Below, piece by piece: positions 1 to 12,728 of a DNA stretch of 35,979 nucleotides (positions within the stretch are counted from its first letter, which is position 1; each line of letters starts with the position of its first letter). The stretch spans positions 1 through 35,979 of the forward strand of contig JANYAN010000355.1 of NCBI GenBank assembly GCA_025361305.1, given 5' to 3'. The notes under the pieces are model-generated. The model was not told the origin of the DNA. It searched no databases and saw only the letters and a list, made by a program, of their open reading frames with translations. This DNA is from Burkholderiales bacterium (lineage in GTDB: Bacteria; Pseudomonadota; Gammaproteobacteria; Burkholderiales; Burkholderiaceae_C). The position numbers and the translations under genes were made by a program.

Positions 1-2
1 CG

Positions 3-236
3 CAGTTGCGCGCCCTGGCCGCTGGCAACGACTGGGTCGACACCGATGAGTTTCTGCACTACGTCGAGGTTTTCCTGGACCTGTGCCGCGGCCATATCGC
101 GCTCGAAGAATCGATCATCTATCCGCAGGCCAAGGCGCGCCTGGCGCAGGCCGTCGCCAGCCGGCTGAAGGAACTGCCACCGCGGCGGGCCACGGCCCCT
201 GGAACCTCACCGCAACCTGCGACGCCGACCAAGTAA
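3..236 (+). CDS. Hemerythrin HHE-domain protein, C-terminal part (5' truncated by window edge)
   Basis: Open from window start; motif ...EFLHYVEVFLDLCRGHIALEESIIYPQAKARL resembles the C-terminal HxxxE of HHE domains. Confidence 0.6.
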   Translation, partial: QLRALAAGNDWVDTDEFLHYVEVFLDLCRGHIALEESIIYPQAKARLAQAVASRLKELPPRRATAPGTSPQPATPTK

Positions 237-1592
237 CCAGGGGACGACCCCGATCGCGATGCCGCCCAAGCCAACGATGTTGGTCGTCAGGTCGAACGTC
301 GGGATGCTGTAGAGCGCAATGAAGGTCAGGAAGGCCGCACTGCCGGCCGGCCACAGAAACAGGAACAGAAAACTGTCGACCGACTTGAACGCCGTCTTGC
401 GGAAGTGCCACATGCACGCGAATCCGGCAAGACTGTAGTAGCACGCCACCTGGAACCCGATCGCGTTGACCGAGTCCTTGATGATCTCGTTCAGGGTCGT
501 GAAATACGACGAGAGAAACAGCAGCACCAGCCCGAAGACGACGATCACACTCGTGGCCACCCACGGCGTCTTCCAGCTCTTGTGCAATATGGCGTAACGC
601 GGGTGCAGCGCGCCATCGCGTCCCTTGGCGTACATCGTGCGCGTAAATTGCAGGATCGAGGTCTCCAGCGTTCCGATCGTGCTCAGCATCACCGCCAGCA
701 CCGCCACGTAGCTCCATGGCCGCGGGAACAATTTGTCGGCGACCGCGAAGACGACGTTGGTACTTGACTGCTCGATTTCCGCGTCGGTGAGCACAACCAG
801 GCAAGCCGCCGCAAACGTCATGAACAGCAGTAGCACGATGACCATTGAAATCACCGCGCCGCGCCCCGGGGCATGAGCGGCATCGCGGGTTTCTTCGTTC
901 AGGTTGAGGGTGACATCCCAGCCCCAGAAAAAGAACAAAGCTGTCAGTGCGCCGGTGGCAAACAGCGACGGCGTGAATTCGGCCAGGGAGAACCAGCGCC
1001 ACGAAACGGCATGGGCCGGGTGCGACAGGTACTGGACCAAGGCGGCCACGATGACGATCACCAGCACGCCCACTTCGATGGCCGTCATCAGGACCTGCGT
1101 ATAACTGGTCGGCTTGATCCCCTTGACGATGACCAGGCTGACCGCAATCAACCAGCCTGCCGCAACGAACGACACACTTGCCGGATCGCTGGCGTGGGTG
1201 GGGCTTATCAGAATCAACGTCGCGGTCGCGGCAGGAATGGTGCCCGACACCATGAACACCGCCGAGGCAACCAGCAGCGACCAGCCGGCGATGAACCCGA
1301 AGAAGGGGCCGAAGACTTCACCGACCCATGCATACGACGCCCCGGCATTGGTGATGACGCGATTCAGGTGCATGAACGCGAAGGTCACGCCGAACATGAT
1401 CAGCCCGCAATAAAGCAGGCTGCCGGCGGACAGGGTTCCCACGGCAGCAACCAGCGTCGCTGTAGTCGCCGCGACACTGAATGCCGGCGCAGTGCCGGCC
1501 ACTCCCATGACCACGGATTCGCCCAGACCCAGTGAATCCGCCGCCAACTGCGGCCCTTTGGGTGCTCCATCGAGAAGTGTGCCTGATTGCAT
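207..1592 (-). CDS. APC-family amino acid permease
   Basis: About 460 aa polytopic protein; N-terminal LGLGESVVMGVAGTAPAFSVAATTATL typical of APC transporters; ATG at 1592 chosen over the upstream alternative start. Confidence 0.85.
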   Translation of the reverse strand: MQSGTLLDGAPKGPQLAADSLGLGESVVMGVAGTAPAFSVAATTATLVAAVGTLSAGSLLYCGLIMFGVTFAFMHLNRVITNAGASYAWVGEVFGPFFGFIAGWSLLVASAVFMVSGTIPAATATLILISPTHASDPASVSFVAAGWLIAVSLVIVKGIKPTSYTQVLMTAIEVGVLVIVIVAALVQYLSHPAHAVSWRWFSLAEFTPSLFATGALTALFFFWGWDVTLNLNEETRDAAHAPGRGAVISMVIVLLLFMTFAAACLVVLTDAEIEQSSTNVVFAVADKLFPRPWSYVAVLAVMLSTIGTLETSILQFTRTMYAKGRDGALHPRYAILHKSWKTPWVATSVIVVFGLVLLFLSSYFTTLNEIIKDSVNAIGFQVACYYSLAGFACMWHFRKTAFKSVDSFLFLFLWPAGSAAFLTFIALYSIPTFDLTTNIVGLGGIAIGVVPWLLGRRRRLR

Positions 1593-1634
1593 GGCGGCAT
1601 TCTGCCCGGCACAGCGCCGCGCCACAAGTGCAGC

Positions 1635-2657
1635 TCAGAGCTTGGCCCTGACCGCCTCGACCAGCGGCGCAATCGACGACGGCGGAAACGGCGAGACACT
1701 GCTGACGTTCACTTCGCACAGCACGTAACCCTGCGGCTCGCCTGGCGCTGTGTTGCCCAGCATGAAGTCGCAGTCCCACAGCAGCGGCAACTGCTCGCGC
1801 GCGAGGCCGACCTGTTGGCGAAGGCTTTCGATCCAGCCGGCTTCGAGCTGCTGCCTCAGCAACTGAAACTCAGGTGTGTCAGCCCCGTCGTACAGGCGCG
1901 AACCCGGCTGCTGCACCGTCGGGTGCAAGGCGTTGATGGCCTGGTGGCCGAATCCAGTCACCCTGCCCTCCACCAGATACGCACGCACCATGCCGTCGGC
2001 AAGCCGCGGCTGCCAAGCCTGGTCGATCATGTGGCCGCCCTGCGCCGGCTCGAAGTAGGGTGCCATGCGTTGCAGCAGACCCGCCATATCTACCCGCTCT
2101 TCTTCACTGCCGCGCTGGGCGTGGCGCAATTTCAGCAGCCCCGCGTCGGCCTCGCCACCCACGGACTCGACCCGCCAGACCCCGATGCCGCTGTGGCCGC
2201 GGTACTGCTTGAGCACGCGCGCACCGCGTTGCAGCCGCGCCGGCAACTCGGCAGCAAGTTGCTCCAGGCTGTCCACACGATGCACGTCGCTGCCGAACGG
2301 CAGCTTGCGCGTCTCGAACAGTACATCCTTGGTGCCCAGGCGAAGGATGGCGTCGGGATGCGCGCTGACCTTGACCCCGGCGTTGGCGACTTCGCGCAGC
2401 AACGCGTCGAGCCGGTCGCGCTGTCGCCCGCCTTCGATGGGGTTGGACCAGACCAGCACGACCCGCATCCGGCGCAGTTGCGCCGCCACCTCGTCGGCAA
2501 AGTCATCGTGATAGACGGCCGGCTCGGCGCGCACGCCGGCCGCTGCGAACGCGTCAAACAGGGCTGCGAAGCGGCTCTGTACGGGATCGGCAGCATCGCG
2601 CGCAGCCCTGTCTCCGGGGTACAGCAGCGCGACCGAGGGTGATGCGGGGTGTGTCAT
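1635..2657 (-). CDS. ATP-grasp-like / Cj0069-family protein
   Basis: 340 aa; KDVLFETRKLPFGSDVHRV, RVLKQYRGHSGIGVWRVE and CEVNVSSVSPFPPS resemble ATP-grasp nucleotide-binding and C-terminal motifs; ATGA overlap with the upstream SOD-rhodanese gene. Confidence 0.6.
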   Translation of the reverse strand: MTHPASPSVALLYPGDRAARDAADPVQSRFAALFDAFAAAGVRAEPAVYHDDFADEVAAQLRRMRVVLVWSNPIEGGRQRDRLDALLREVANAGVKVSAHPDAILRLGTKDVLFETRKLPFGSDVHRVDSLEQLAAELPARLQRGARVLKQYRGHSGIGVWRVESVGGEADAGLLKLRHAQRGSEEERVDMAGLLQRMAPYFEPAQGGHMIDQAWQPRLADGMVRAYLVEGRVTGFGHQAINALHPTVQQPGSRLYDGADTPEFQLLRQQLEAGWIESLRQQVGLAREQLPLLWDCDFMLGNTAPGEPQGYVLCEVNVSSVSPFPPSSIAPLVEAVRAKL

Positions 2658-3574
2658 GGCTTACCTCCCAGCGGCTTGTCGGCCAGCGGGTGGCCGGCGG
2701 CCTGCCAGCCGTCGATGCCGCCTTCCAGGTAGCGCGCGTTCACGCCGGCGGCGCGCAGCCGCATCGCGGTGGCTCGACCCACCTCGTGGCCATAGACGCA
2801 ATAGACGACCACCTCACGGTCCTTGGGCAAGTCGGCTGCCCAGTCGGCCACCGCGCCTGGGTCGCGCCAGCTGGCGCCGGGGATCATCGCGCTGGCCTTC
2901 TCGAATACGCCAGCCCGGCGCACATCGAGCAACATCGCATCCGCAGCGTCTTTCTGTGCGGCGCCGAAAGGCGCGCTGGCCGCATGCACCGCGTGCTGGT
3001 AACGCAGGTAGGCCTGGGCCCAGTCGACATTGGCCATGAAAGCGTCGACATAGGCACCGGCAGCCGCGCCGAAATCCATGTGATACGCGTGTTCGTACAT
3101 GTCCAGCGCCAGGATGGGCACACCGCCGGCCACGGCATGCGTGTGGTCGGCCGCCCACTGGTTGACCAGCGTGCCCTCGCGCGGCTGGAACACCAGCAGC
3201 ACCCAGCCCGAGCCACCGCCCAGGGCCTTGCCCATGGCGCCGAACTCATCCTGCCAGCGTTCGCAACTACCGAAGTTGGCGTCCAGCGCCAGCTTCATCG
3301 CCGGCTCCATGGTCTGTCCGTCACCGCCCAGGCTGCCGAAGTACAGCTCGTGCAGCAGCATCGAGTTGGTGGCGATCAGCTCCTCGCGCTTCAGGCCATT
3401 GAGCTGGAAGCCCGGCGCTCTGGCGAACGAGGTGCGCGCGAGTTCGGCGCGCAGCGCGTTCAGGCGCTTGACGGCCCCGCCGTAGTTGTTGCGGTGATGG
3501 CTGACGAGCAGCTTGTCGGACAGACCGTGCAGTGCGGCCGGGTCGAAGGGCAAGTCTTGTGGCAAGGCGTCCAT
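2654..3574 (-). CDS. Fe/Mn superoxide dismutase-like domain fused to C-terminal rhodanese domain (ChrC-ChrE-like fusion)
   Basis: SOD motifs SHHRNNYGGAV, LLHELYFGSLGGDG, LDMYEHAYHMDFG; rhodanese motif EVVVYCVYGHEVGRATAMRLRAAGVNARYLEGGIDGW. Confidence 0.9.
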   Translation of the reverse strand: MDALPQDLPFDPAALHGLSDKLLVSHHRNNYGGAVKRLNALRAELARTSFARAPGFQLNGLKREELIATNSMLLHELYFGSLGGDGQTMEPAMKLALDANFGSCERWQDEFGAMGKALGGGSGWVLLVFQPREGTLVNQWAADHTHAVAGGVPILALDMYEHAYHMDFGAAAGAYVDAFMANVDWAQAYLRYQHAVHAASAPFGAAQKDAADAMLLDVRRAGVFEKASAMIPGASWRDPGAVADWAADLPKDREVVVYCVYGHEVGRATAMRLRAAGVNARYLEGGIDGWQAAGHPLADKPLGGKP

Positions 3575-3584
3575 GGGAGTTCCT

Positions 3585-4736
3585 TCAGTGAAGCAGGTTG
3601 ATGGTCAAACCGGCAAGCGCAGCGACGACCACGACCAGCGGTTCGGGTACTTTCTTGAAGCGCCAAAGCACACCCACAGTGACCCCTGCCAGCGCGGCGG
3701 TGGGAAGGTCAACGATGGACCGCTGCCCGATGACGATCACCGCGCCGGTGATCGCGCCGATGGCCGCAGCCGTCACGCCATCGACGAATGCGACGACACC
3801 AGGCCGCTTGCCATGCTTCTTGAAATACGGTGCCGGCAGGATGGTGAAGAGGTAGCAGGGCACAAACGTTGCGGCGGCTGCGACCACCGAGCCCCAGAAG
3901 CCCGATACGAGGTAGCCGATGAAACCGGTGGTGATGACCACAGGGCCGGGCGTGATCATTGCCACGGCCACGGCGTCGACGAACTGGCGATCGGTCAGCC
4001 AGTGGTATTCCTGCACTACCCCGCCATACAGGAAAGGCACGATCGCCAGCCCGCTGCCGAAGACAAAGCTGCCGGCATAGGCGAAGTAGGCCCCGACCTG
4101 CCCGAGCTTGTGCCAGTCGAGCGCGTCGATCGCAAAGAAGGCGATGATCGGCGCGGCCATGCTGCTCACGGTGCCGCCCGACAACCACTTCGGCGGCGCC
4201 CGCAGCATCCAGACCAGTACGCCCGCACCGAGGAAGATCCACACATCTTCGGACTTGGTGATCACCGTCATCGCAGCGCTGACGGCAAAGATCGCCCAGA
4301 GCAGCCTGTCCTTGCCGATGTTCTTGGTCGTCAGCTTATAGGCACTCATCGCGATGATGCCGATCACCGCGGCGCCGACGCCGTAGAACACGGCCTGCAT
4401 CCAGGCGATGCCACCGTAGGCGGTGTAGGCCGCGCCAATGGCCACGACCATCAGGAACGAGGGCAGCACGAAGGCCAGGCCGACCAGCGTGGCGCCCAGC
4501 ACCCGGTAGTGGACGTAGCCGAGGTAGATCGCCAGCTGCGCCGCCAGCGGACCCGGCATCAGCTGGGACAGCGCCATGCCCTCCTTGTAGTCGCCCTCGG
4601 AGATCCATTGCCGCCGCTCGACCAGGTCGCGGTACATGTAGCCGACCAGCGCCACCGGCCCGCCGAACCCCCAGGTCCCCAGCGCCAGCATGTAGCGCAC
4701 GATCTGCCACAGAGAGTAAGTGGCGACATCACTCAT
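3585..4736 (-). CDS. chrA: Chromate transporter ChrA
   Basis: CHR-family motifs FGGPVALVGYM and LSQLMPGPLAAQLAIYLGY, and the second-half repeat TPGPVVITTGFIGYLVSG; overlaps chrB by ATGA. Confidence 0.93.
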   Translation of the reverse strand: MSDVATYSLWQIVRYMLALGTWGFGGPVALVGYMYRDLVERRQWISEGDYKEGMALSQLMPGPLAAQLAIYLGYVHYRVLGATLVGLAFVLPSFLMVVAIGAAYTAYGGIAWMQAVFYGVGAAVIGIIAMSAYKLTTKNIGKDRLLWAIFAVSAAMTVITKSEDVWIFLGAGVLVWMLRAPPKWLSGGTVSSMAAPIIAFFAIDALDWHKLGQVGAYFAYAGSFVFGSGLAIVPFLYGGVVQEYHWLTDRQFVDAVAVAMITPGPVVITTGFIGYLVSGFWGSVVAAAATFVPCYLFTILPAPYFKKHGKRPGVVAFVDGVTAAAIGAITGAVIVIGQRSIVDLPTAALAGVTVGVLWRFKKVPEPLVVVVAALAGLTINLLH

Positions 4737-5719
4737 CGGTTGCCTCCCTTGTCGCTTCCCCGCCTGACCTCACGCGCGAAGTGCGCGTACAGTGAATCGA
4801 GCACCGTACTCATCTCTGCCAACAGGGCGTCGTCGTCGACCAAGCGCTCGCGCGCCCCGGCGATCACGGCCTCGAAGCCAACCGCTTCGGGTACCGGCTC
4901 GCCCCCGATGTCCAGCGCGTGCACGATCGTGGCCAGGCGCGCCAGGCCTGGGTCGGTGTCGAGCCCGAAGCTGGCCATCAATGTCTCGAAAGTCACGCGA
5001 TCGTCAACGTGGGTAAACGTCGCCCCGTCGAAGTCGAAGCCAAGCGCTCGCTTCGGACAATCGGAGGGTCTGGCCAGCCACTGAAACCGCGCGTCGCGAT
5101 CGATGAACCGGCGGATCAACCAGGCACTGGCAACACGATCGACCCACAAGCGCCGGCGCGTTGCCCAGGTGCGGCCCTGGTACTGGCTGGGATCAAGGAG
5201 GGGAATCCGGCCTTCGGACTCATGCGGCTCGTCGGGCGATAGAACACCGTCGATGCGCTTGTTGAGGTCGGTCCAGGCCGCCTCGGCCTCGACACTCGCT
5301 TCGCCGGGGAAGAAATCGATTGCCCGAACCGCGTCGTATTCGCGCTGCAGCTTTCGCTGCAACCGGGCGAGCTCTGGCGCGCCTGGCGTGCCCATCCCCG
5401 GGTTCGCCTCGCGCCAGGTCTTGCGCAGTTCAGCGTAGTCCTCGCTGCGGTCGAACAGCTGGCGATAGGTGGCCGATTCGTCCGCAGACCGGGCCTGGAT
5501 CGCCATGAGCCACGCACTGCCGCCCTCGCGGCTGCACTCATCGGCGAGTGCTTGCAGCGCCTCCTCGTGCGCAGGGCTTGCGGGCAGCAGATGGGCACCG
5601 TCGCGCAGGGCCACGCAGCCCAGGCTCTTTAGCGCCCGCCAGATGCGCATGCGGCCCGTGGCGCTGGAGGTGGGCAGCGAGACGATCAGCAATAACCATG
5701 ACGGATGAGTCGGAATCAT
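4733..5719 (-). CDS. chrB: Chromate resistance protein ChrB
   Basis: WLLLIVSLPTSSATGRMRIWRALKSLGCVALRDGAHLLP and RRRLWVDRVASAWLIRRFIDRDARFQWL...CPKRALGFDFDGATFTHVDDRVTFE are ChrB-like; adjacent to chrA. Confidence 0.92.
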   Translation of the reverse strand: MIPTHPSWLLLIVSLPTSSATGRMRIWRALKSLGCVALRDGAHLLPASPAHEEALQALADECSREGGSAWLMAIQARSADESATYRQLFDRSEDYAELRKTWREANPGMGTPGAPELARLQRKLQREYDAVRAIDFFPGEASVEAEAAWTDLNKRIDGVLSPDEPHESEGRIPLLDPSQYQGRTWATRRRLWVDRVASAWLIRRFIDRDARFQWLARPSDCPKRALGFDFDGATFTHVDDRVTFETLMASFGLDTDPGLARLATIVHALDIGGEPVPEAVGFEAVIAGARERLVDDDALLAEMSTVLDSLYAHFAREVRRGSDKGGNR

Positions 5720-5753
5720 GTAGCTAATCATACATTAATGTAAACTTCGCTAC
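5720..5753. promoter_or_regulatory. Concentric dyad operator candidate between chrB and the divergent SOD-rhodanese gene
   Basis: GTAGC-taatca-TACATTAATGTA-aacttc-GCTAC: perfect 12-bp core palindrome (5731-5742) and 5-bp outer arms (5720-5724/5749-5753) share centre 5736.5. Confidence 0.7.
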
Positions 5754-5772
5754 ACACCAAAGGAGCCCCACC

Positions 5773-6738
5773 ATGATTTACGGCGTAGCGCCCCTGTTCT
5801 GCCGCCCCTGGACCTTGAACGGCATTCAGCCGCGTCTGATCGAAAGCCACTATGAACACAACTATGGCTCGGCCGTGCGCCGCCTCAACGCCGTCACAGC
5901 GGAGCTGGCGACACTCGACATCGCGTCGGTTGCGCCCCAGCTTCTGGGGCGCCTGAAGCGCGAACAGGCCAGCCTTCTGAATTCAACCCTGCTGCACGAA
6001 CTCTACTTCGCCAGCCTGGGTGGAGACGGGCGATCCGTCCCTGCGCCTCTGTCAGCCGCGCTCGCCCGCGATTTCGGATCGGTCGATCGCTGGCGCCAGG
6101 AGTTCATGGCACTGGCCGAATCGCTGGGCGGCGAATCGGGCTGGATCGTGTTGTGCTACGTGCCCCGGGATGGTCGGCTGATCAACCAGTGCGCTGTCGA
6201 GTACGCGCAAGGCATTTCAGGCGCTGTTCCCATCCTGGCGCTGGATATGTACGAGCATGCCTACACCATTGAATTCGGTGCGAACCAGACTGCGTACATC
6301 GCCGCCTTCATGCGCAACATCCTTTGGGACGCGGTCGAGGCGCGATTGGCCAGCGCGCTGAATGTTGCGCCGCCCCTGAAGCTGGAGCAGCCCGAGTTCG
6401 GTGACCTTCCGTCCATCGCACCCGAGGAAGTGCGCGCCATGATGACATCGGGGAAAAGAGTGCAACTCATCGACACCCGGCCACGCCACTACACCACCAA
6501 GGCCAACGAAATCGCCTCTGGCGCTGTCTGGCGCGATCCCGAGCGCATCTCGGAATGGATCACCACGCTGTCGAAAGACGAACCGGTGGTGACCTTCTGC
6601 GTCTACGGGTTTCACATCGGCTGCCAATCCGCAATCGCTCTGCGTGAGGCTGGCTACGACGCCCGCTATATGCGCGGCGGACACGCCGCGTGGAAAGCAA
6701 TTGACGGACCAGTGGATCTGTTGAAGCAGCAAGCCTAG
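5773..6738 (+). CDS. Second SOD-like/rhodanese fusion protein, divergent from chrB
   Basis: SHYEHNYGSAVRRLN, LLHELYFASLGGDG, LDMYEHAYTIEFG plus rhodanese VVTFCVYGFHIGCQSAIALREAGYDARYMRGGHAAW; AAAGGAG upstream. Confidence 0.9.
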   Translation: MIYGVAPLFCRPWTLNGIQPRLIESHYEHNYGSAVRRLNAVTAELATLDIASVAPQLLGRLKREQASLLNSTLLHELYFASLGGDGRSVPAPLSAALARDFGSVDRWRQEFMALAESLGGESGWIVLCYVPRDGRLINQCAVEYAQGISGAVPILALDMYEHAYTIEFGANQTAYIAAFMRNILWDAVEARLASALNVAPPLKLEQPEFGDLPSIAPEEVRAMMTSGKRVQLIDTRPRHYTTKANEIASGAVWRDPERISEWITTLSKDEPVVTFCVYGFHIGCQSAIALREAGYDARYMRGGHAAWKAIDGPVDLLKQQA

Positions 6739-6784
6739 CCACACTCACGGAGTTTCAATTTTGCAAGAATGGGGCCGTTTCGCA

Positions 6785-7174
6785 CTAGGCGAACTTCTGC
6801 TTGAGGAAGCTGACTACGTAAGGAGTGGCCGCGGCGGCAACGGTGGACGCCGTGGATGGATCAAGCCCCGCGCGAGCTGCCAGCGATTCGGCCACGCGTC
6901 CGGTCATGAGGCCTTCACCGCCATCGACTAGCGACTTGAAGAACCCATCCCCATGAACCAGGCCCGCGGCGAAGCCTGCGAAGAAGCTCTTGCCTGCGTG
7001 GTCACCCAAAAGGCCGGAGTTCTGCTCCTCGACGTGCTCGTGTGCGGCTGTGGTCGCGTGACTCAATAGTTGCTGTGCGTCGGCTTCGCTAAAGCCTTGT
7101 GCGCTGAGCGCCTGGGTGGCCTGTGCACCCTGCGCGGAGGAAAGAAATTCGGAAACCAGCTGCTGCGCATCCAT
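6785..7174 (-). CDS. DUF937/YidB-like small protein
   Basis: MDAQQLVSEFLSSAQGAQATQALSAQGFSEADAQQLLSHAT...; AGGAGGTGAT RBS immediately upstream of the ATG at 7174. Confidence 0.6.
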   Translation of the reverse strand: MDAQQLVSEFLSSAQGAQATQALSAQGFSEADAQQLLSHATTAAHEHVEEQNSGLLGDHAGKSFFAGFAAGLVHGDGFFKSLVDGGEGLMTGRVAESLAARAGLDPSTASTVAAAATPYVVSFLKQKFA

Positions 7175-7339
7175 TCGATCACCTCCTAAGAAGATACTTT
7201 CCATCCACTCTAGCATCGAAGTGCTCCGGTTCGCGCAGGGCTCGGCTGACCTGCGCGCTACACTCGTTTCGGGGAGAACCACGATGGTCTGGCCTTGGGC
7301 AACTTGCCCCGTGCTTTGGCTTAACTCAGGAGCATCCGA

Positions 7340-7811
7340 ATGAAGCAGTTTCTTTTTTCCCTCACCGCCACCGCAGTCCTGCTCGCATCGAGTGCGGCGT
7401 TTGCCCAGGCCCCCCGCCGCTGCGCCTGCTGGCTCGACGGGACTGTGCAATGACGGTTCCTATACGTCCAACGACACCAAGAAGGGCGCCTGTGCGGGCC
7501 ACAAGGGAGTGAAGGACTGGTTCGGCGCTGCCCCGGCAGCTGCACCCGCAAAGACTGCAGCAGCGGCGTCCGCACCCTCTGCTGCGGCGACGAAGCCTGC
7601 TTCCGCGGCCGCCAAGGCCGCCGCACCGGCACCTACGGCCGCGCCAGCTGCTGGTGGAGGTCCTGGCCAAGTGTGGGTCAATACCAGTTCGAAGGTCTAT
7701 CACTGCTCCGGGACAAAGTACTACGGTAAGACCAAGAAAGGCGAATACATGACCGAAGCAGCGGCCAAGACAGCCGGGGCCCATGCCGATCACGGCAAGG
7801 CTTGCTCTTAA
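7340..7811 (+). pseudogene. Secreted DUF3761-like small protein, reading frame split by a +1 C in a C6 tract
   Basis: ATG at 7340 encodes signal peptide MKQFLFSLTATAVLLASSAAFAQAP then terminates at 7453; the body GSTGLCNDGSYTSNDTKKGACAGHKGVKDWFG...GKACS is in the frame of 7392-7811. Removing one C from C6 (7410-7415) joins them. Confidence 0.75.
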
Positions 7812-7820
7812 GCCGGCGAA

Positions 7821-7845
7821 GACCGCGGCATCGGTCCCCTTTTTT
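7821..7845 (+). terminator. Rho-independent terminator candidate
   Basis: GACCG-cggcat-CGGTC stem followed by CCCTTTTTT. Confidence 0.55.
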
Positions 7846-7887
7846 CCATGCCGCGGTTAGTAAACCGCCATAGCTTGCGGCTCAGAC

Positions 7888-9456
7888 TCAGAAGACGTAC
7901 TTCAAGCCCACGCTCGCACCCTGAAGCCTGCTGCCAGCCCAGCATTTCGGGGCGTTTCCATTTGGATCAAAGCCGCTCGTATCAGGATTGCTGGCGTCGT
8001 GACAATCCGTCGTGACAGCGCGTCCGCCAGCACCCAGGTCGTAGTGTGCGTCGCGATGATTGGCCGTTATCGCGTAGTTGGCGTAATAGCTGTAGTTCTT
8101 GTCGACCCGATGCTTCCAGGCCAGCGTAAACATATTGGCCGCATTGTCCGGATTGGCACCACCTGACGTGTTGTGAGCGCCTGGGTCGCCAGGCGTCGCT
8201 TTGGCATGCGCCCAACCAAAATGCAAGCTGTCATTGGCGTTGAGGTCCTGGCTCACGGCCAACCACGTACCCGTCCGGGTACGCTCATTTTGAATGTCCA
8301 GATAACCAGGCACGCTGCGCTTCAGGTTTTCATAGATCGCGCTGACCGTGGTGCCGGTAGCAAACCTGTATTGGGCACCGATTTTTGCTGCTCTTTCGTC
8401 AGCGATGTCATTTGCGTCGTAGGTTCCCAGGTCACTGGTCCGGTTGACCTGGCGGTGCAACTCATAAGCCCCGGTCACGTATAAGCCCCCGCTTCGATAG
8501 CCGGCACTCACGCTGTAAGCGGTGCCGTAGGCGCCGTCGTTGCAGGCCACGGGCAATCCTCCGCTGCCGGGGACGTTTCCGCCCGCGCAATCGCCTTCAC
8601 CGCCGGCGAGGTTGCTGTTATCGGTCGCCCGGTTCTGCCCAGGGGCCACCAACGCATTAAAACTGAATCCGTTCCAATTGGGCGATTCGTACCAAATCGC
8701 GTGATCCAGGCGGGTACCGAACTCAACCCGGTTGTCTCCGCCGGAATTGCCCATGATGACCGAGTAATCACCTAGCATCCCCGAGAAGGGATTCATGGAG
8801 GCGGTGGAAGTCTTGTACGGCGCATCCGTCTTGCCGATCTTGATCGTGCCCCAGTCCGGCGAGCCCAATCCAATGAAACTGTTGCGCGACGTCAGTCCAC
8901 CCTTGACGACGCTGCTAGTGTTGCTGTTGCTCGCGCTGGTGCCAGATGTCGCGGAAACGTCGATCTGCGTCTCGAGTTGCCACACGAAATTGGCAGGGTA
9001 GCTTCCCAGAGATTGCGAGCCACGCAGCCCAACATAGGACAGGTTCGTCGAGACCGCAGACATCCATCCGCCATTGCCCACTGGCGTGCTTCCGTCCGCC
9101 GCCATCATGCCGGAGATGCCCTTGGTGCTTGTGTCCAGGGAAAGGTCCAGATTCCCATAGACGGATACTTCCCCACCCCGTGTCTTGAAGGTGATGCCAT
9201 CCCCCGGCGCGCGTTCCAGGAAATCGCGGCCGCCCGAAGCCACAGGCGTAGCCGGTGCTGATGGCGCCGCGTTCTGCTGCTCTGAGAGCTTATCGAGACG
9301 AGTCTTGAGCATCTCAATTTGCTTCTGCAACAAATCGATCTGGTGCTTCATCTCCTCGTTGCTGGACTGTGCGCTCGCGCCACTACACAGGCCGAGGCTG
9401 GATGCACCAACCACCAAGGCGCAGACTCTCGCGACGGCGGTTCGCTTCATGTTCAT
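7888..9456 (-). CDS. Gram-negative (burkholderial-type) porin
   Basis: Signal peptide, coiled-coil HQIDLLQKQIEMLKTRLDKL, VSVYGNLDLSLD, NSFIGLGSPDWGTIKIG, terminal ...GASVGLKYVF ending in Phe. Confidence 0.9.
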   Translation of the reverse strand: MNMKRTAVARVCALVVGASSLGLCSGASAQSSNEEMKHQIDLLQKQIEMLKTRLDKLSEQQNAAPSAPATPVASGGRDFLERAPGDGITFKTRGGEVSVYGNLDLSLDTSTKGISGMMAADGSTPVGNGGWMSAVSTNLSYVGLRGSQSLGSYPANFVWQLETQIDVSATSGTSASNSNTSSVVKGGLTSRNSFIGLGSPDWGTIKIGKTDAPYKTSTASMNPFSGMLGDYSVIMGNSGGDNRVEFGTRLDHAIWYESPNWNGFSFNALVAPGQNRATDNSNLAGGEGDCAGGNVPGSGGLPVACNDGAYGTAYSVSAGYRSGGLYVTGAYELHRQVNRTSDLGTYDANDIADERAAKIGAQYRFATGTTVSAIYENLKRSVPGYLDIQNERTRTGTWLAVSQDLNANDSLHFGWAHAKATPGDPGAHNTSGGANPDNAANMFTLAWKHRVDKNYSYYANYAITANHRDAHYDLGAGGRAVTTDCHDASNPDTSGFDPNGNAPKCWAGSRLQGASVGLKYVF

Positions 9457-9552
9457 AGTTGTCTCCTGGTAGTTGCTTCTTCGAGCTACTCGTCGCGAAC
9501 ACGGGACTTACATGCGGCGAGCCAATAGTCCGCTTCGTGCTTACTAAGCGCT

Positions 9553-9568
9553 CTTGACCGCGGTCAAG
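9553..9568. promoter_or_regulatory. Perfect 16-bp palindrome, FNR/CRP-family-like site
   Basis: CTTGACCGCGGTCAAG, matches TTGAC-N4-GTCAA, about 100 bp upstream of the porin start. Confidence 0.5.
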
Positions 9569-9914
9569 TTTCTCGAATTCGGTGGCGCAAGATTTGGGCG
9601 CTAACGCACGTGGCCGTGCATGCCAATGTGATTATCTCGCCGCTGAACTGACCGTGAGCTGACTGATCTCGCGATCAGTAGTGCTTAAGGCATCTGATGA
9701 GTATGACCGGCCCCCTACCGCCGTACCACTCGAATTGAGGAAGTCCGCGGTTGCAAGGTTATTCGATCCTTGTTGGGGTTGAACTGGATCGAGTTGCTTC
9801 GCCAGCGCGCACGCCTGAGCCGTCTGTCGGTCTGGTGGTTGCGCCTGGGGACGATCAAGTCTGGCAGGTCAGCTTCATGGACTATTGGATAGCTGCCGCG
9901 TCGAGCCCGGGGAT

Positions 9915-9955
9915 GGGGCGGAATCGAACCACCGACACGCGGATTTTCAGTCCGC
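9915..9955 (-). pseudogene. tRNA-Phe(GAA) 3' fragment (anticodon arm, variable loop, T arm)
   Basis: Minus strand GCGGA-CTGAAAA-TCCGC-GTGTC-GGTGG-TTCGATT-CCGCC-CC: complete anticodon and T stems, GAA anticodon; no D arm and no paired acceptor stem/CCA. Confidence 0.8.
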
Positions 9956-10933
9956 CGTGATCCCTGCCCGCTTGATCAGCTCACCGTAACGGGCCAGTTG
10001 CGCCCGCGTCGCCGTGCCCAGTTCCTCGGCGGTGCTGCCGCGCGGCGTGAGTCCTTGCGCCACCAGCTTTTCGCGCACCTCAGGATCGGCCAGTGCCTTG
10101 GCAACTTCGGCCTGAAGCAGCTGCACGATGGCTCTGGGCGTTCCGGCAGGCGCCATCAGCGCGAACCATGAGTTGAATTCGAAGCCGGGCAGGCCCGACT
10201 CTGAAACCGTCGGCACCTCGGGGAACTGGGGCATGCGTCGCGGCGTGGTGACGCCGATCAGGCGCATCTTGCCGGCGCGCACCATCGAGTTCACGGTGGC
10301 GATGCCCTGGAAAGCCACCTGCACTTCGTTGCTCGCCACGCCCATGGCCGCCTGGGTCGCACCCTTGTAGGGCACATGCATCATCGAAACTCCTGCCTGC
10401 GAGGCGAACAGGGCCATCGCAATGTGCTGCGGGCTGCCGTTGCCGCCCGAGCCGTAGTTGATCTGGCCTGGCGATTTGCGAGCGCTGGCGATCAAATCAG
10501 CCGCGCTGCGCTGGGGCGCATCGGCGCCCACCACCAGGCCCCATTCCACTGTCGCGACCAGCGAAATCGGCTCGAAATCACGCAGGATATCCCACGGCAT
10601 TTTTGCCTGCATGTTGGGCACCATGGTCATGATGCTGTCGTTGAAGCCGCCCAGCGTGTAGCCATCGGGTGCGGACTTGGCAACCCTTTCGGCGCCGATC
10701 AGGCCGGCAGCGCCCGGCTGGTTCTCGATGACGAAGGCTTGCCCCATGTTCTGCCCCATCTTCTGGGCGAGGATGCGGGCAGCGTTGTCCACTGCGCTAC
10801 CGGCGGCCAGCGGCACGATCATGCGGATGGGCCGGCTGGGATAGCCGGCGGCGGTGGTCTGGGCCAGCGCAGAGCCCGCGCACAGCGCAGCCAACACGAG
10901 CGCGGCGAAGTGACGGCGATGTCGCGTTGTCAT
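9947..10933 (-). CDS. Tripartite tricarboxylate transporter substrate-binding protein (TctC/Bug family)
   Basis: Signal peptide; YPSRPIRMIVPLAAGSAVDNAARILAQKMGQNMGQAFVIENQPGAAGLIGAERVAKSAPDGYTL. Confidence 0.92.
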   Translation of the reverse strand: MTTRHRRHFAALVLAALCAGSALAQTTAAGYPSRPIRMIVPLAAGSAVDNAARILAQKMGQNMGQAFVIENQPGAAGLIGAERVAKSAPDGYTLGGFNDSIMTMVPNMQAKMPWDILRDFEPISLVATVEWGLVVGADAPQRSAADLIASARKSPGQINYGSGGNGSPQHIAMALFASQAGVSMMHVPYKGATQAAMGVASNEVQVAFQGIATVNSMVRAGKMRLIGVTTPRRMPQFPEVPTVSESGLPGFEFNSWFALMAPAGTPRAIVQLLQAEVAKALADPEVREKLVAQGLTPRGSTAEELGTATRAQLARYGELIKRAGITAD

Positions 10934-10951: not shown

Positions 10952-12010
10952 TCACAGGGCCTGCAAGGCGGGGATCCCGGCCTCAGCGGCAAATTCATCG
11001 AGCTGCTTGCGCAGGGCGGCCGGCAGCGCAATGCCATCACGCAGATTGGCGATGCGTCGCTCATGGCTTTGCTCACCAGGCAGCCAGATGCGCTCGACAC
11101 CCGGCATGCGTTCGCTGGCACGCAGCTCGCGCACCAGCTGGTCAACCCGCGCCTTGAACGCGGGCACGTCGCCAAACGCGCTGACATCGATCGCCATGAC
11201 AGCCTGGCCAGTGTTGGTGATGCTGGCCTGGTCGCGATTGAAATCGATCACCTCGCTGCCCATGGCCGCGCCGTTGAGCGTGCCCGCCAGCAAGCCGACG
11301 ATCAACGACAGCCCGTATCCTTTGTAGCCACCAATGGGCATCAGAAAACCTTCTTCGGCGCGTTTGGGGTCAGTCAGCGGCTGCCCGAGGCGATCGATCA
11401 TCCAGCCCACGGGCATCGTCTCGCCGCGCTGCACCTTGGCCTTGACCTTGCCATAAGCCGCCACCGTGGTGGCCATGTCGAGCACCACCGGCGCCTCATC
11501 GCCTGCCGGCACGGCCACCGCAATCGGGTTGGTGGAAAGCAGCATGTCCAGTCCGCCCCATGGTGGCAGGTGGTTGGCGTTGCCCACGGCGAAGTAAAGG
11601 CCGATCATGTCGTGCGCCATTGGCATGCAGGCATACAGCGACGCCGGACCGGCGTGATTGCTCAGACGCGAACCCACCCAGCCGATCCCGCACTGACGCG
11701 CCTTCTCGATGGCCATCTGTGCAGCCCTTGCCATGACCAGGTGGCCCATGCCGTTGTCGCCGTCCAGCAAAGCCATGCCCGCGCGCTCCTGGATCACCTT
11801 GATGTCAGGGTGCAGGTTGATGCCACCGGCCCGGATGCGCCGCGCATACGGCAACACGCGGATCGCGCCGTGACCGTCCGAGCCCTGCAACTCGGCCTCG
11901 GCCATCAAGCGGCCGACCACCTGGGCATCGGCAGCGGGCAGTCCAAGGTGGGCCATGGCAGCCGTGACGAACAGCTTGAGCTGCGAAAAGGCGACGCGCG
12001 ATTCAGTCAT
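10952..12010 (-). CDS. Ldh (malate/L-lactate/ureidoglycolate dehydrogenase) family oxidoreductase
   Basis: SDGHGAIRVLPYARRIRAG, SNHAGPASLYA, LLSTNPIAVAVPAGDEAPVVLDMATTVAAYGKV, GGYKGYGLSLIVGLLAG. Confidence 0.9.
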   Translation of the reverse strand: MTESRVAFSQLKLFVTAAMAHLGLPAADAQVVGRLMAEAELQGSDGHGAIRVLPYARRIRAGGINLHPDIKVIQERAGMALLDGDNGMGHLVMARAAQMAIEKARQCGIGWVGSRLSNHAGPASLYACMPMAHDMIGLYFAVGNANHLPPWGGLDMLLSTNPIAVAVPAGDEAPVVLDMATTVAAYGKVKAKVQRGETMPVGWMIDRLGQPLTDPKRAEEGFLMPIGGYKGYGLSLIVGLLAGTLNGAAMGSEVIDFNRDQASITNTGQAVMAIDVSAFGDVPAFKARVDQLVRELRASERMPGVERIWLPGEQSHERRIANLRDGIALPAALRKQLDEFAAEAGIPALQAL

Positions 12011-12686
12011 GTTCCATCCCCCGGCGCAGGGCCAGTACAGCGCAATCTGGGCTGCTGAGCGCGGTGCAAGTCAGTTCGGCCTGAACGGCGGGCAGGGCCT
12101 GTGCCATCGAAAACTGCGCCAGCATGACCACATCGCAATCGCGCAGCTTGCGCGCGGCCAACGCAATTTTGCGATGATGCAAATCGGCCTGGCCACGGGC
12201 CAGGTCCTGCATCGCTTCGGGGACGAACTCGGCAAGCAACTCGATCGTGCGGCCGCGCTGCGCGGCCATCGCAATCAGTTCGGCCGACATCGAGACGATC
12301 GAAGGCTCGAAAGTGGCAATCAGTCCCATGCGGGCGCCGCTCTGCGGGCCGACGGCCGCCAGCGCCTGGTCGAACATCGCCTCGTTCGGCTTGAGCGTGG
12401 GCAGACCCACGGCCACGCCTGCAGCCTCGATCGCTGGCCCGAATGCCGAGCAGGTGAACAGAATGCCCCCACAACCGGTGCTGCGCGCATAGAGGGCAAG
12501 GTCAATAAAGCGCTGCACCATCGGATCGGTCAGACAGCCTGCCTCCGCCCGGTCGACAGACAGGCTGTCGTCCAGCAGGTTCATGCGGTGTGCCTGTGGC
12601 CAGTGCCGGGCGAACGCCGACTCGATGGGCTGGACCGCCAGTGCCGTGGCGTGAATGAGGGCGATACGGGGGGCGGGAGAAGCCAT
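12003..12686 (-). CDS. Aspartate/glutamate racemase family protein
   Basis: RIALIHATALAVQPIESAF, GCGGILFTCSAFGPAIEAA, RMGLIATFEPSIVSM, CDVVMLAQFSMAQA; ATGA-type overlap with the downstream dehydrogenase. Confidence 0.8.
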   Translation of the reverse strand: MASPAPRIALIHATALAVQPIESAFARHWPQAHRMNLLDDSLSVDRAEAGCLTDPMVQRFIDLALYARSTGCGGILFTCSAFGPAIEAAGVAVGLPTLKPNEAMFDQALAAVGPQSGARMGLIATFEPSIVSMSAELIAMAAQRGRTIELLAEFVPEAMQDLARGQADLHHRKIALAARKLRDCDVVMLAQFSMAQALPAVQAELTCTALSSPDCAVLALRRGMEHD

Positions 12687-12728
12687 GTGGGGCCACGCAG
12701 CGCCGGCCATTATGACGCGCCCGCGCGG

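Follow-up and report, generated by a model that had tools for sequence, protein, structure and literature searches.

The anticodon loop is one of the main subsites at which integration into tRNA genes takes place (PMC4383910). The integrase of Salmonella genomic island 1 (SGI1), whose primary site is the 3' end of thdF, also recombines at a degenerate secondary site between sodB and purR (PMC2297512). In the locus described here, a 42-bp block of tRNA-Phe is joined, within its anticodon loop, to the 3' end of a protein gene, tctC. The window that we analyzed, a stretch of 35,979 nucleotides, spans the whole of contig C62 in a 4.06-Mb draft assembly (556 contigs, only 27 tRNA genes found). The 42-bp block is probably a decayed hybrid attachment site of the attL/attR type, left by an integrative element that recombined at the 3' end of tctC. 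It is a true but ordinary recombination scar, and its position at a secondary site is its only unusual feature.

A truncated tRNA-Phe segment

Table 1. Features of the window, and small integrative elements of relatives, with positions on their own contigs or loci
Feature	Position	Strand	Evidence and remarks
Chromate cluster	2654..6738		ChrA 3585-4736 (-), ChrB 4733-5731 (-); Pfam
SOD-rhodanese fusion genes flanking chrA/chrB	2654-3574 and 5773-6738	- and +	Pfam
Porin, first gene left of the scar	7888..9456	-	PF13609
IS3-family IS end remnant, truncated towards the tRNA fragment	9704..9810	+	Terminal repeat TGACCGGCCCCC and 3' end of orfB; 85% identity to the IS end in L119
Partial tRNA-Phe(GAA), nt 27-68	9914..9955	-	41/42 bases identical to intact tRNA-Phe, C506:9576-9651 (blast against own genome, E about 1e-13); Rfam tRNA 25.2 bits
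Proposed recombination half-site, GCGGACTGA	9947..9955	-	tctC codons GCG GAC TGA (-AD*), coinciding with tRNA-Phe nt 27-35 (GCGGATTGA)
tctC, tripartite tricarboxylate transporter receptor protein, intact	9947..10933	-	PF03401, E=9e-72; orthologues at 72-81% identity across almost their full length
Resident genes upstream of tctC	10952..12710	-	Malate/L-lactate dehydrogenase family, 10952-12010 (PF02615); Asp/Glu racemase family, 12003-12710 (PF01177)
Small integrative elements at tRNA-Phe, about 5 kb	L078 (7116-12281), L080 (7201-11990), probably L083		Tyrosine integrase, REP_ORF2-G2P, protein of about 127 aa

On the minus strand, positions 9955-9914 read GCGGACTGAAAATCCGCGTGTCGGTGGTTCGATTCCGCCCCA, retaining the anticodon arm, the variable loop, the T arm and the start (3 nt) of the 3' acceptor strand, with the D arm and CCA missing. 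The match to tRNA-Phe is far beyond chance, and its sole mismatch to the host gene is T32 -> C. The only other copy of the block in the genome is the intact tRNA-Phe(GAA) gene on contig C506 (Table 1), so that a matching intact tRNA does exist. The exact repeat common to the two contigs is 36 bp long (tRNA nt 33-68), and the DNA flanking it differs from C506 on both sides. The fragment ends at nt 68, where CCCCA runs into TCCCC (in the intact gene, CCCCAGGCCACCA) and continues as TCCCCGGGC, GGCCACCA being expected from the intact tRNA-Phe. The original prediction of a tRNA-Phe fragment without a D arm and with a disrupted acceptor thus describes the sequence correctly and can be refined, in that everything from nt 69 onward is gone, namely the rest of the acceptor 3' strand, CCA and terminator. 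On C506 (L003), the stretch 9576-9778 holds the intact tRNA-Phe and downstream DNA like that of occupied relatives; the contig ends within 127 bp after the tRNA gene, and an ORF starting MRVFLSWSGSKS (possibly TIR-like) begins just before that end.

ARAGORN called no tRNA in the window. The Rfam tRNA model aligns to 9969-9909 with a score below its gathering score of 29, the D arm missing, and this alignment, which spans the tctC/tRNA joint with a partial acceptor stem, is what speaks for a functional block, be it a D-armless tRNA-like RNA or a terminator or processing signal of tctC. Such a role is extremely improbable, as the block folds no better than shuffled sequence (z -1.05), its preferred fold is not a cloverleaf, it has neither CCA nor a U-run, and it is not present in relatives. 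The complete cloverleaf, acceptor stem and CCA of a functional tRNA gene are not found in it, and a functional tRNA-like RNA was rejected on fold and completeness.

Could the joint be an artefact of assembly, with contig C62 chimeric at a repeated tRNA segment? The segment is indeed repeated in the genome, and a draft of so many contigs in which so few tRNA genes were found invites the suspicion. However, the exact repeat of C506 is short and its flanks differ on both sides, a simple swap at the repeat would have fused tctC to the complete 3' end of the tRNA, a fusion that the sequence does not show, and the joint on the tctC side has only 9 bp (one mismatch) in common with the tRNA. A chimeric contig is therefore highly improbable.

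The joint at the tctC stop codon

The TGA stop codon of tctC (9949-9947, minus strand) lies within the anticodon loop (C-TGA-AAA), which confirms on the minus strand the earlier claim that the joint falls in sequence shared by the two genes. The C terminus of the protein, -GITAD*, aligns with the ends of its genus orthologues (-ITAE*, -ITAD* or -ITSD*), and tctC is neither truncated nor extended. Because the orthologues stop at the same residue, GCGGACTGA is the native coding end of tctC. It shares 8 of 9 bases with GCGGATTGA, and the common core half-site expected for integration at a secondary site in tctC is thus present; a 9-bp match with one mismatch at a fixed register has a probability of about 1e-4 by chance. 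The tctC orthologue in a related genome (G026) spells GCGGATTGA exactly, identical to the tRNA. The C at position 32 of the fragment is the base expected from the GAC codon of tctC, but tRNA-Phe genes with C32 occur elsewhere, in a genome of the same order (G053) and in Azospirillum, so that this base is no proof of a tctC origin. Neither the tRNA piece nor the window's left-hand DNA was found behind tctC orthologues in the genus, where the downstream DNA is unrelated. For annotation, this arrangement explains a tRNA-like match that overlaps the end of a coding gene.

tRNA-Phe as an integration site in the genus

Related genomes contain many partial (3') copies of tRNA-Phe, most of which, among those tabulated, extend to CCA and a terminator-like hairpin. 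The 5' start lies at nt 29-32, the border of anticodon stem and loop, in 12 of the 19 tabulated fragments. At four loci (L078, L080, L081 and L090), a tRNA-Phe fragment lies at the edge of an element that encodes a tyrosine integrase. The interval of about 5 kb between intact tRNA and fragment in two genomes (G025 and G035) encodes a 325-aa tyrosine integrase (PF00589), a REP_ORF2-G2P replication protein and a conserved protein of about 127 aa, and other integrase-like genes, recognized by sequence without a Pfam scan, adjoin fragments in two more (G031 and G032). tRNA-Phe is thus an integration hot spot in this genus, with crossover in the anticodon loop. The window copy turns tRNA-specific inside the same loop, a known crossover subsite. 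With an intact tRNA-Phe in the genome and heavy use of this gene in the genus at the same breakpoint, the original prediction of an attachment-site-like recombination scar is supported.

Several features of these elements vary. The gene next to the tRNA is acyltransferase-like in one element of about 5 kb and protease-like in another, and L083 is incomplete, showing nothing beyond the small protein and the beginning of a Rep-like protein. On one contig (G031:C27; L081 and L082), an intact tRNA-Phe and a 3' fragment lie on the same strand, separated by about 234 kb. An integrase adjoins the fragment; this arrangement is possibly a very large island or a tandem array.

The window's own genome carries, on contig C469, part of an integrase that shares 85% identity with the integrase of the tRNA-Phe element family and is interrupted by an IS66-family element (L129, G000:C469, 1528-3530). 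A tRNA-Gly gene follows tRNA-Phe in several relatives and is a frequent neighbor in the genus; both tRNA-Gly and the small conserved protein typical of these elements were sought in this incomplete assembly, and neither was found.

The two sides of the scar

On the right, tctC and the two genes upstream of it form a block of about 2.7 kb that is kept in many relatives, with 74-79% DNA identity in the genus, and this side is resident because of that conservation. On the left, the tRNA fragment is separated from the porin gene by an IS3-family end, 104 bp away from the fragment. The matching IS in L119 carries orfA (HTH_Tnp_1) and orfB (rve), both recognized by Pfam, and copies of it are dispersed through many genomes of the family, several at contig ends. 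Between the tRNA block and the IS end (9811-9913) there was no phage match, and plasmid matches covered the tRNA part only. The border on the 3' side of the tRNA block is clearly decayed, and other rearrangements have taken place there, as shown by the missing 3' end of the fragment and by the IS3-family remnant that separates it from the porin gene. Farther left, the chromate cluster shows partial matches of about 69-71% to plasmid-borne chromate clusters, and at about 7.0-10.0 kb the GC content lies at 0.59-0.62, compared with about 0.65 to the right. The two superoxide dismutase-rhodanese fusion genes run in opposite directions and are about 69% identical over a 294-bp stretch.

In the neighborhoods of relatives that were examined, porin and chromate genes were never found beside tctC or tRNA-Phe, so that the junction is, as far as the compared genomes show, specific to this lineage. 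With DNA identities of only about 75-80% to these relatives, the junction is not datable. The same truncated fragment or junction was found neither in viral contigs nor in phages. Six plasmid records matched, and the two inspected were intact alphaproteobacterial tRNA-Phe genes. Among genomes of 84,980 species, there was no other tctC-tRNA-Phe fusion of the same form, only one unrelated chance match.

The original prediction had also suggested that the porin/chromate segment may be one side of an old island boundary. Synteny breaks at the fragment, with no porin or chromate genes beside tctC in the relatives examined, and an intact tRNA-Phe is present in the genome, so that neither of the two conditions named as refuting the prediction holds. 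The ORFs of the window that were scanned with Pfam yielded no integrase, and no second core or repeat was found within the 36-kb contig, which ends at position 1 and is open at both ends. A genome-wide search for the Phage_integrase family likewise gave no match in C62; the tRNA lies on another contig and the interrupted integrase on a third. It is plausible that the left side (1-9900) is an island. If the reading as a hybrid attachment site is right, the scar marks one border of a rearranged segment beside a chromate resistance cluster.

The locus is not a classical pair of tRNA and displaced fragment, since a protein gene, tctC, takes the place of a tRNA on the 5' side. A classical island would make the fragment the displaced 3' end of the genome's own occupied tRNA-Phe, with tctC the last island gene and the porin and chromate genes the old downstream chromosome. 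The surroundings of the tRNA-Phe on C506, where the DNA between the gene and the contig end resembles that of occupied relatives, would suit an occupied site, as would the fact that the window copy is the only other tRNA-Phe copy in the assembly. But displaced fragments keep the 3' end and terminator that are missing here, porin and chromate genes are not next to tRNA-Phe in the relatives examined, several of which have tRNA-Gly there, tctC and its two upstream genes are resident in many relatives, and the stop codon is native. We consider a classical island quite unlikely.

Proposed origin of the junction

How could a tRNA-specific integrase leave its mark on a transporter gene? For a hybrid attachment site at tctC, we propose an integrative element whose attP held the 3' half of tRNA-Phe and whose tyrosine integrase would normally recombine within the tRNA-Phe anticodon loop. 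The 3' end of tctC would have been used instead as a secondary site, its codons GCG GAC TGA reproducing, presumably by chance, the left half of the tRNA anticodon arm (GCG GAT TGA). The 3' tRNA half of the element, from the loop onward, would then have been joined to tctC, which would have stayed intact because its stop codon lies inside the shared part. Later, the acceptor end, neighboring element DNA and any integrase may have been lost by deletion, and the IS3-family end may have arrived. Such a deletion must be assumed because an attP that restores tRNA-Phe must carry the full 3' end, and the fragment stops at nt 68. We infer that the junction is the work of an integrase, that the element brought in all or part of the left side, and that the steps followed one another in this order. 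Against a hybrid attachment site stand the lack of an integrase near the scar and of the partner junction in a window that is a whole contig.

The main rival is illegitimate joining, in which the shared 9-bp stretch let a broken end with a piece of tRNA-Phe fuse to tctC, by microhomology or an IS-mediated deletion, with no integrase involved. The 8 of 9 bases common at the joint would serve such an event, the nearby IS3-family remnant shows that rearrangement took place, the second breakpoint at nt 68 fits no known attachment endpoint, and the scanned ORFs of the contig include no integrase. Yet the joint falls in the anticodon loop, at the same few bases as the breaks in the 12 fragments of relatives, whereas a random joint would land in the loop only about 1 time in 10 (estimated from the fraction of the gene that the loop makes up). 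Joining without an integrase is therefore unlikely.

If integration at tctC is the right reading, the locus shows clearly, at the sequence level, how a tRNA-directed integrase can act on a protein gene that mimics half its site and leave the gene unbroken. It would be a long shot to generalize that the stop-codon ends of the TctC family (-AD* spelled GCGGAYTGA) are recurrent secondary attachment sites for integrases of the tRNA-Phe anticodon loop; if this were true, the large tctC repertoires of these bacteria would amount to many harmless landing sites for mobile elements.

Comparison with known systems

Genomic islands of the Islander type, which are integrated in tRNA genes, have a displaced 3' tDNA fragment and use the anticodon subsite (subsite A; PMC4383910), resemble this locus in having a tRNA fragment with its 5' boundary in the anticodon loop, and the genus itself supplies many proper examples at the same tRNA-Phe. 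The intact cognate tRNA that Islander looks for in the same genome is present on C506. Unlike islands of that type, the locus has a protein gene as the 5' partner, a fragment without its 3' end, and neither an integrase nor a partner tRNA found in cis. The internal-fragment filter of Islander would reject the fragment, which covers nt 27-68 only and reaches neither end of the tRNA. The small tRNA-Phe elements of the genus (L078, L080 and probably L083) share the tRNA and the breakpoint with the scar, and a remnant of their integrase survives on C469, although none of their genes or flanks is left beside tctC. In contrast to SGI1, the event is read here from sequence alone, the element is gone and its second junction was not seen. 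On the proposed reading, the locus resembles secondary-site integration by SGI1 in that the 3' end of a coding gene would have been the target, the gene stayed intact, and a degenerate match to the primary core would have served as the second site.
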